Below are positions 36,154 through 38,798 of a stretch of DNA of 64,000 bases, in pieces. The notes under the pieces were generated by a model. That model was not told the origin of the DNA and ran no database searches. It saw only the letters and a program-made list of their open reading frames with translations. A program made the translations under genes and the position numbers. Each line of letters begins with the position of its first letter. The stretch's first letter is position 1. The DNA comes from Candidatus Poribacteria bacterium (GTDB taxonomy: Bacteria; Poribacteria; WGA-4E; WGA-3G), in the NCBI GenBank assembly GCA_012270865.1, contig JAAXHL010000132.1, forward strand, positions 62,001 to 126,000, in the 5' to 3' direction.

Positions 36154-36900
36154 TCAGAGGATACCGAGCGGCGGCATTACCACCACTTCTTCGGTTACCA
36201 TGCCAGACGGTTGCCCACAAATAGAGACAACCGTATCCGCTACATGCTCCGGCTTAAGCATCTGCGCAAAATCGGGGTGCATCGGAACGTCATCCCAAAA
36301 CGGCGTATGCACCGAACCCGGTAGCACCGCAGTAACCCGAATATTCTGCCGACGGACTTCAGTCGCTAAAACCTTTGTCAGTGCCAACGCGCCCGCTTTT
36401 GCTGCACAATAGGCAGCCGAGGCTTCAAACGCAACCTTCGCAGCGACCGAAAGCACGTTAATAATCTGTCCATTCCCCTGTACTAACATAGACGGAAGCG
36501 CATACTTCGCACAGAGATAGACCGCCTTTAAATTGGAATTCAGAACTGTATCCCAGTCATCAGGTGCGAAATCGACAACCGGACCGAAATAGCCGACACC
36601 AGCGTTGTTGACCAAAATATCCACGCGTCCATAAACATCAAGCGTCCGTTCAAAAAGTCGCTGCACAGCGTCTGCGTCAGTGACATCCGTCGGAACAGCC
36701 AGTGCGTCAGCACCGCCTTTCTTCAGACCCGCTGCGACCTGTTCCAGCGTCTCACGTGTCCGTGCAGCAAGCACGACCTTCGCGTCTACCGCTGCGAAAG
36801 CGGTAGCGATCGACTGACCGATCCCCCTTGAGGCACCCGTAATCACAACGACTTTTCCGGCAAGTTCCCCTATCTCATTCGGACGATTGGAAGAAACCAT
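36154..36900 (-). CDS. SDR family oxidoreductase, in apparent operon with folE
   Basis: LAGKVVVITGASRGIGQSIATAFAAVDAKVVLAART...NNAGVGYFGPVVDFAPDDWD...AAYCAAKAGALALTKVLATEVR. Confidence 0.92.
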   Translation of the reverse strand: MVSSNRPNEIGELAGKVVVITGASRGIGQSIATAFAAVDAKVVLAARTRETLEQVAAGLKKGGADALAVPTDVTDADAVQRLFERTLDVYGRVDILVNNAGVGYFGPVVDFAPDDWDTVLNSNLKAVYLCAKYALPSMLVQGNGQIINVLSVAAKVAFEASAAYCAAKAGALALTKVLATEVRRQNIRVTAVLPGSVHTPFWDDVPMHPDFAQMLKPEHVADTVVSICGQPSGMVTEEVVVMPPLGIL

Positions 36901-36942: not shown

Positions 36943-37542
36943 TCAAGATATTTGGACGCACCGCAAAAACTCCGCACGTGTTGAGCTATCCTCTCGGAAC
37001 GCGCCACGCATAACATTCGTTGTCATTTTCGGTGCCTGCTTCTCTACACCGCGCGCCATCATACATAGATGTTGACCTTCTATGACGACCGCAACACCTC
37101 GCGGTTCAAGGGCAGTTTCGAGTGCCTCAGCGATCTCGCGGGTCAGACGTTCCTGAACCTGTAACCGCCGAGCAAACATATCCACAATCCGCGGAATCTT
37201 GCTCAAACCTATAATCCGGTTCTGAGGAAGATACCCGACGTGACATTTCCCCCAAAACGGGAGGATATGGTGTTCACAGAGACTGTAAAACTCAATCTCC
37301 TTCACAATCACCATTTCGTCGTAATCTTCGTCAAAGATCGCCCCATTTAATATCTCATCAACAGTTTGATGGTAGCCGCTTGTCAGAAACTCCATCGCTT
37401 TCGCCGCACGGAGAGGTGTTCTCACTAAGCCTTCACGATTCGGATCCTCACCTAAATTTTCAATAATCTTGGTGAAGAGACCCTCTAATTCTGGGTTCGG
37501 AGGCTCCTGTTTAAGTGTCATCGTTTTAAAGTTTGTCTCCAT
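36943..37542 (-). CDS. folE: GTP cyclohydrolase I
   Basis: [26 protein letters not shown]...[61 protein letters not shown]...[18 protein letters not shown]. Confidence 0.96.
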
Positions 37543-37577: not shown

Positions 37578-38405
37578 TTACGCGCCGTAATAATCAAAGT
37601 GATTTCTCGGTGTTTCTCTCAAGCGGAGACGATGTAAAACCACCGGACGTAAATTCGGTTCTAATACATCCCAAAGCACTTTGACGAAGTTCTCCGAGGT
37701 CGGATTGAGTATCTCAAATTCAGGCGCGTCAATATTCAGATGCTTGTAGTCGAAACGCGCAGACACCTGTTTTTCAACGACGTCATCGAGAAGATTTAAA
37801 CCCGCGACCAGACCCGTCCGCTCATCGACATCACCTTTTACGGTAACCTCAAGGACGTAATTATGCCCATGTCCAGCAGGATTGTTGCACTTCCCGAAGA
37901 CCTCACGGTTCTCATCTTCACTGAGTACGTGGCTATGCAAACGATGTGCCGCGCTGAACTCGTAGACCTTGGTCAGATAAACCATCAATCCTTCCCCATA
38001 ATAGTCGGCAAAATTTGATGTGCTTTCGTAGAGCCGTACCCTATATAGCATCCCATTCGGCAGAGAAGGCAGAAGCCGCTGCCAAATTTCCACGGTGATA
38101 TTCTCACACGTCGGTTGCAGGGACGGATTTTCCGAGAAAACCGGATGTTGACGGTTCAGGTGTTTGTGATCGTAATTCGCAATCACTTCCGTTTTCAACA
38201 ACGCATCCAATGTCACGAGATTAATGACCATACCGTCATCGGTATCGACTTCACCTTTTACCATCACCTCAAGGACGTAGTTATGTCCGTGGCTGTTTGG
38301 GTTCGCGGCGGCACCGAACAAGGCGAAATTCTCCGCGTCGCTCAAGTCAGGAAGCCGATTGTAATGCGATGCCTCAAACGCTGTTTGACGGGTTAAGTAG
38401 TACAT
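37578..38405 (-). CDS. Tandem-fused 6-pyruvoyl-tetrahydropterin synthase / QueD-like protein (two PTPS domains)
   Basis: Domain 1 [16 protein letters not shown]...[14 protein letters not shown]...YDHKHLN...PTCENI...YES; domain 2 [14 protein letters not shown]...[17 protein letters not shown]...FDYKHLN...PTSENF...RET. Confidence 0.93.
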
Positions 38406-38441: not shown

Positions 38442-38798
38442 CTAACGTGTCGGGACAACTAACTCGCTGTCGATAGATTCATACTGGACTGCCATGACCC
38501 ATTCGCCTGTCCCACGTATCTGGACGTTACACTTTTTCAACCACTCAATGAGAGCCGGACGGTCGCGCGCTTCCCATTCACAGACCAGCCGTCCTGACAA
38601 CGTATCACACAGAACTCGGATATTACGAACATCGTCGTTCTCTTCTTCCTTGAAACGCTTCAACAATCGTGCAACATCTTGGCGCGTCATGCAAGCAATA
38701 GCGTGGGTAGAAACAAATTTAGGCACTTTTAATTTTACCTTGCGGAGGAATAACGGATGCTTCAACTTTGATAGACGTTCCTCATATCCGCTCTCCAT
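38442..38798 (-). CDS. Small DUF4242-like protein (start uncertain)
   Basis: PKFVSTHAIACMTRQDVARLLKRFKEEENDDVRNIRVLCDTLSGRLVCEWEARDRPALIEWLKKCNVQI; the first ~24 codons of the ORF lie in a repeated leader, so a GTG start (VPKFVSTH) is likely. Confidence 0.6.
   Translation of the reverse strand: MESGYEERLSKLKHPLFLRKVKLKVPKFVSTHAIACMTRQDVARLLKRFKEEENDDVRNIRVLCDTLSGRLVCEWEARDRPALIEWLKKCNVQIRGTGEWVMAVQYESIDSELVVPTR

Follow-up and report, generated by a model that had tools for sequence, protein, structure and literature searches.

Tandem PTPS domains in Candidatus Poribacteria probably divide an inter-subunit catalytic triad between them

Introduction

In rat PTPS the active site is said to combine residues of different subunits; Nar (1994) reportedly assigned Cys42 and Glu133 to subunit A and His89 to subunit B, the site being bounded by A, A′ and B. 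PMC7546909 and PMC2229834 both cite Burgisser 1995, whose title names an intersubunit triad of PTPS. The motif CxxxxxHGH marks PTPS-II, and CxxxHGH marks QueD (PMC5041015). Catalytic residues are also divided in bimodular QueF, where the catalytic Cys lies in the C-terminal module, has been lost from the N-terminal module, and the site is assembled between domains (PMC5372742). In urate oxidase, tandem T-folds form an eight-stranded sheet, two chains make up each 16-stranded barrel, and two barrels are stacked head to head (PMC5138847). A search of openly licensed papers found nothing on tandem or fused PTPS.

Here we describe a gene encoding two PTPS domains in one chain from Candidatus Poribacteria, a sponge-symbiont bacterium. 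The two domains probably divide the inter-subunit catalytic triad, domain 2 holding the Zn, the pterin anchor and the Cys nucleophile, and Cys-less domain 1 supplying the activating Asp-His. Comparison of 186 such fusions suggests that domain 1 no longer does chemistry itself and lends its Asp-His to the Cys of domain 2.

Results

The gene lies in a 64,000-nucleotide stretch of DNA, called the window throughout. The features of the gene are as follows.

37578..38405, minus strand: tandem PTPS gene, 275 aa, ATG start, stop codon within the span
37989..38405, minus strand: domain 1 (residues 1-139), proposed Asp-His donor; Zn/pterin pocket without Cys
37581..37988, minus strand: domain 2 (residues 140-275), bearing the catalytic Cys
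38307..38309, minus strand: domain 1 Ala33, at the position of catalytic Cys42 in the rat PTPS alignment
38166..38171, minus strand: domain 1 Asp79-His80, equivalent to rat Asp88-His89 in the same alignment; invariant across Poribacteria
37887..37889, minus strand: domain 2 Cys173, equivalent to rat Cys42 in the alignment, within CNNPAGHGH (CxxxxxHGH; motif from PMC5041015)
37746..37751, minus strand: domain 2 Asp219-Tyr220, equivalent to rat Asp88-His89 in the alignment, His lost
37977..38000, minus strand: short link from the last strand of domain 1 to the first strand of domain 2 (residues 136-143; AF2 secondary structure)

In a profile search the protein matched PF01242 over two stretches, with a total of 194.6 bits against a curated cut-off of 22.4. 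Its closest relatives are other Candidatus Poribacteria proteins. Residues were numbered by alignment to rat PTPS at positions 23, 42, 48, 50, 88, 89, 107 and 133. Domain 1 reads H-A-H-H-D-H-E-E at these positions, with Glu101 and Glu127 corresponding to E107 and E133, and domain 2 reads H-C-H-H-D-Y-E-E, with Glu238 and Glu264 in the equivalent places. Each domain has the three Zn His and the two pterin-site Glu. Complete Cys-Asp-His was found in neither, domain 1 having Ala-Asp-His and domain 2 Cys-Asp-Tyr. By profile the protein is therefore a member of the PTPS family, though not a standard PTPS. The alignment bore out the initial annotation, which had read domain 1 as lacking Cys and keeping Asp-His, domain 2 as having Cys and Asp-Tyr, and both as retaining Zn His and Glu. 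The motif coordinates it gave were near enough, except that those for domain 2 were a few bases off; the 13-residue stretch containing the Cys lies at 37857-37895 and FDYKHLN at 37734-37754.

The chain resembles the PTPS-II enzymes of rat (1b66, 1gtq) and human (3i2b) in fold (Foldseek TMt 0.93-0.95, over one domain). The Zn His, both Glu, the CxxxxxHGH of domain 2 and an inter-subunit triad are likewise shared. The window protein differs in having two domains per chain, neither with the complete triad. E. coli QueD (4ntk) has the same PF01242-type fold and was also matched by Foldseek to one domain, but it is a single-domain protein with CxxxHGH (PMC5041015) and 28-32% identity.

To see the fusion across its relatives, we assembled 186 tandem proteins from Poribacteria, Armatimonadota and Planctomycetota, after manual removal of eight loci that duplicated a gene already retrieved. 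The Armatimonadota sample is the phylum searched from the genome of locus L096. The proteins, which are related sequences and not independent events, fell into the following classes.

Domain 1 with Asp-His, domain 2 with Cys and without Asp-His: 60 (Poribacteria 57, Armatimonadota 3)
Domain 1 with Asp-His, domain 2 complete: 20 (Poribacteria 14, Armatimonadota 6)
Domain 1 stripped, domain 2 complete: 102 (Armatimonadota 96; all 6 Planctomycetota, whose N-terminal halves give a weak partial PTPS match of 4-12 bits with triad and Zn residues not assignable, and which add to regime ii only)
Domain 1 with Cys only, domain 2 complete: 3 (Armatimonadota)
Both domains complete: 1 (Armatimonadota)

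The Cys of domain 2 was kept in 186/186 proteins and that of domain 1 in 4/186. Loss of the domain 2 Asp-His was found only where domain 1 has Asp-His (60/60), and no protein had lost both Asp-His pairs (0/186). Among the 71 Poribacteria proteins, domain 1 never has Cys at the C42 position (in a few the position is gapped or truncated) and always has Asp88-His89. Domain 2 has C42 in 71/71, and its Asp-His pair is lost in 57/71, mainly to Asp-Tyr. The division of residues is therefore systematic over the family and not the oddity of one genome. Both triads intact, an arrangement that would have told against a divided site, occurred in the single Armatimonadota protein listed above and in none of the 71 Poribacteria. 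Sequencing error or a pseudogene was ruled out, since 71 Poribacteria proteins with open reading frames show this same arrangement. At locus L121 of genome G077, overlapping ORFs of 174 and 152 aa in different frames encode the two domains separately, either as a split gene or through an assembly frameshift.

Two regimes can be distinguished. In regime i, comprising all 71 Poribacteria and nine Armatimonadota, the domain 1 Asp-His is invariant and the domain 2 His has been lost repeatedly. In regime ii, comprising most Armatimonadota and the Planctomycetota, the domain 1 Asp-His is lost and that of domain 2 is always kept. Column conservation was scored on 40 non-redundant regime i proteins (excluding L122, described below) and 92 regime ii proteins. 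In regime i, D88 and H89 of domain 1 were present in 40/40, with A, T, S, K, E, M and others at the C42 position. C42 of domain 2 was present in 40/40, with H89 occupied by Y in 19, H in 17, F in 3 and G in 1. Across regime i the replacements in domain 2 included Phe, Gly and Asn at the His position and Gly, His or Arg at the Asp position, Tyr being the commonest by far. In regime ii, the C, D and H of domain 2 were each present in 92/92, and the D88/H89 positions of domain 1 were dispersed. Parsimony on one tree gave eight state changes of the domain 2 Asp-His and two of the domain 1 Asp-His. An independent-pairs sign test did not reach significance, the number of pairs that differ in both traits being too small. 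The case is therefore built on the contingency table and on column conservation, both drawn from related sequences.

In both regimes domain 1 mostly has the Zn His and both Glu. Its pocket has therefore not just been abandoned, and could still hold Zn or pterin. Trp occupies the catalytic Cys position in 58/92 regime ii domain 1 sequences (Armatimonadota loci L130-L238), in which the Zn His and both Glu are largely kept; this domain 1 pocket of regime ii Armatimonadota appears to serve a separate purpose. In loci L074 and L090 (genus g2) the pterin-anchor Glu133 of domain 1 is replaced by Ser and domain 2 keeps its His; neighbouring lineages differ.

A second tandem copy, L122, was found in the Poribacteria genome G002, on a separate 144-kb contig (G002:C1:64058-74699). 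Its domain 1 lacks HGH, Zn ligands, Cys and PTxEN, and has NFDHKTID at the Asp-His position. In its domain 2 the Cys, the Zn ligands and both Glu are present, RN replaces DH, and the motif is CNTLHGH, of the QueD type CxxxHGH. The same contig has matches to portal, head-protease, tail-tube and DNA polymerase proteins, and to FolE, QueC and QueE (loci L257-L263). The contig has the appearance of a phage that carries a full preQ0 pathway, of which L122 is apparently the QueD, and L122 is probably functional because these three genes accompany it. L122 is a single sequence on a long branch of the tree. A search of viral contigs with L122 as query found no relative, the tandem profile gave weak matches there (at most 43% identity), and a phage collection contained no tandem PTPS match.

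The domains were also placed on a tree with PTPS genes that occur as separate pairs. Domain 1 sequences clustered with gene A from the Acidobacteria/Verrucomicrobia pairs in a single supported group (97/83), and gene B of these pairs fell among the domain 2 sequences. The separate genes have complete triads, except for one gene B with Gln for His. The trees support the correspondence of A and B to domains 1 and 2, so that paralogues A and B, which are separate adjacent genes in Acidobacteria, would be the two-gene form of the fusion, with either fusion or fission as the direction. The gene pairs of Chitinophagaceae formed a separate group and were not used as ancestor.

The AF2 model of the window chain had a pLDDT of 95.1 and a pTM of 0.90. 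In it the final strand of domain 1 (131-135) is followed directly by the opening strand of domain 2 (141-154), across the short link. A model of a regime ii Armatimonadota protein showed the same join, with a two-residue turn. In T-fold rings the last strand of one domain pairs with the first strand of the next. Domains 1 and 2 would therefore most simply be neighbours in one beta-barrel ring. The domain count of such a ring would be even, four in the simplest case, and rings would stack head to head. Both models aligned with urate oxidase over both domains, and GTP cyclohydrolase IB was a further match for the regime ii model. The likeness to urate oxidase lies in the tandem T-folds; the TM is only about 0.4-0.5 at 6-12% identity, and the ring size of the tandem PTPS is a prediction. 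Ring parity favours an even ring like that of uricase over the PTPS trimer.

The PTPS gene is the first of three in the order PTPS, FolE, SDR.

36943..37542, minus strand: GTP cyclohydrolase I (FolE), the next gene after PTPS, by profile match; a conserved neighbour across phyla
36154..36900, minus strand: SDR, the third gene, by profile match; candidate 6-pyruvoyl-tetrahydropterin/sepiapterin reductase, a role suggested by context

A FolE match on the same strand just downstream was found for nearly all of the Poribacteria fusions with sufficient flank, family f7 apart, for many Armatimonadota fusions and for PTPS genes that occur as separate pairs. In most Poribacteria fusions and in many of the Armatimonadota ones it is followed by an SDR match. 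Just upstream of the PTPS gene, most Poribacteria loci carry a conserved 118-aa protein (38442-38798, minus strand, in the window) with no Pfam or NCBIfam match.

FolE and the SDR of the operon are candidates for the steps on either side of PTPS in the making of tetrahydrobiopterin. From its motif and its place at the head of this PTPS-FolE-SDR operon, the enzyme most likely makes 6-pyruvoyl-tetrahydropterin, which would go into a cofactor of the tetrahydrobiopterin type. The window's genome yielded no gene of the phenylalanine hydroxylase family, and no openly licensed paper was found that links Poribacteria to tetrahydrobiopterin. Domain 2 carries the PTPS-II motif, domain 1 lacking its Cys, and the QueD motif is absent from the protein, which scores 114.3 bits against the NCBIfam QueD cut-off of 89.25. 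That the protein passes the QueD equivalog cut-off despite its PTPS-II motif is a warning for annotation. Family f1 of the Poribacteria has a strong QueC match in 44/46 genomes (G000 and 43 others) and a stand-alone QueD-type gene in 0/46.

Discussion

The complementary loss proposed in the initial annotation, with the domain 2 Cys served by the Asp-His of domain 1, agrees with three features of the family: the domain 1 Asp-His of regime i is invariant beside no Cys of its own, loss in domain 2 is contingent on it, and the two pairs are never lost together. Not every fusion has lost the domain 2 His, as 14/71 Poribacteria have a complete domain 2 triad. For the same reason the loss of His from domain 2 is probably later than that of Cys from domain 1. 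We propose that domain 1 lost its Cys early, as seen in nearly all fusions. The domain 2 Asp-His, which would formerly have served that Cys, would then have been free to decay, and the domain 1 Asp-His would have been held under selection by its use with the domain 2 Cys; the observed losses follow this pattern. Domain 2 is possibly self-sufficient in the 14 Poribacteria and in 6 Armatimonadota, where its complete triad stands beside a domain 1 Asp-His. Counting against a shared site, domain 1 keeps its Zn ligands and both Glu, and its pocket may bind something itself.

It is quite unlikely that domain 1 is a purely structural pseudo-domain beside a self-sufficient domain 2 in which Tyr220 replaces the triad His. 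By their residues, most Armatimonadota and all six Planctomycetota fit such an arrangement, with domain 1 stripped and domain 2 complete, and Tyr is the favoured replacement in domain 2. A structural role does not account for the invariance of the regime i domain 1 Asp-His after its own Cys had gone, nor for L122, whose domain 1 retains little except Asp-His, and the other residues found in place of the domain 2 His or Asp cannot mimic Asp-His. PTPS has been described as a dimer of trimers (PMC7546909), and three fused chains could in principle keep that hexamer, with one or two mixed sites per hexamer working. We regard this as unlikely, since the short link is read as a hairpin in both AF2 models, putting both domains in one ring, and a ring of three is impossible from such pairs alone. 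The initial annotation had pictured an obligate pseudo-heteromer with half the sites; domains 1 and 2 cannot alternate in the three-domain PTPS ring, so an enzyme of that kind would need another ring size.

As to function, a role chiefly as the QueD (6-carboxytetrahydropterin synthase) of Poribacteria, or in both jobs, appears unlikely. The window's genome has QueC and TGT, the tandem gene is the only PF01242 gene found in it, and 45/46 family f1 genomes of at least 90% completeness have one tandem only, the 46th adding only a second tandem. With QueC and TGT but no separate QueD, the tandem enzyme may also, or instead, feed queuosine. The phage-like contig moreover pairs a CxxxHGH tandem PTPS with FolE, QueC and QueE. 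The window gene itself has the PTPS-II motif, heads a FolE-SDR operon and finds its best PDB matches in animal PTPS, all of which speak for 6-pyruvoyl-tetrahydropterin synthesis.

Returning to the divided triad, the three rat PTPS PDB entries contain two chains each. Together with the arrangement attributed to Nar, this would fit A, A′ and A″ forming one trimer with B in the other, the Asp-His being donated from the opposite ring, across the head-to-head interface. If so, ring register would set whether domain 2 faces domain 1, as in regime i and the window gene, or another domain 2, as in regime ii. If the Asp-His came from a ring neighbour instead, regime i would still be explained and regime ii would need a different assembly. 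Our tentative suggestion, possible though doubtful, is a uricase-like ring of alternating domains in which the stacking register decides whether a second domain 2 (most Armatimonadota) or a domain 1 (Poribacteria) completes the domain 2 site. A single architecture would then have two evolutionary outcomes, with an endpoint close to a pure Asp-His donor domain, as in L122.

By its residues and predicted fold, the window protein combines tandem T-folds with divided catalytic residues. Like the bimodular QueF of V. cholerae and E. coli it has two tandem T-fold domains with Cys kept in the C-terminal one only. It differs in that QueF is a nitrile reductase with another motif, the V. cholerae enzyme forms a homodimer that has no tunnel, and the tandem PTPS splits Cys from Asp-His. 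By analogy the tandem PTPS may work like the bimodular split-site T-fold enzymes; it is not proposed to be a QueF. The split-site principle is thus already known from bimodular QueF and looks new in PTPS, extending it to pterin synthases. The predicted ring would no longer have three domains but an even number. With both domains in one chain, point mutants can be used to test the inter-subunit triad of PTPS. The fusions provide a family-wide natural record of a duplicate dividing one active site, in which the domain 1 Cys goes first, the residue then freed can be read off, and no protein has lost its two Asp-His pairs together.
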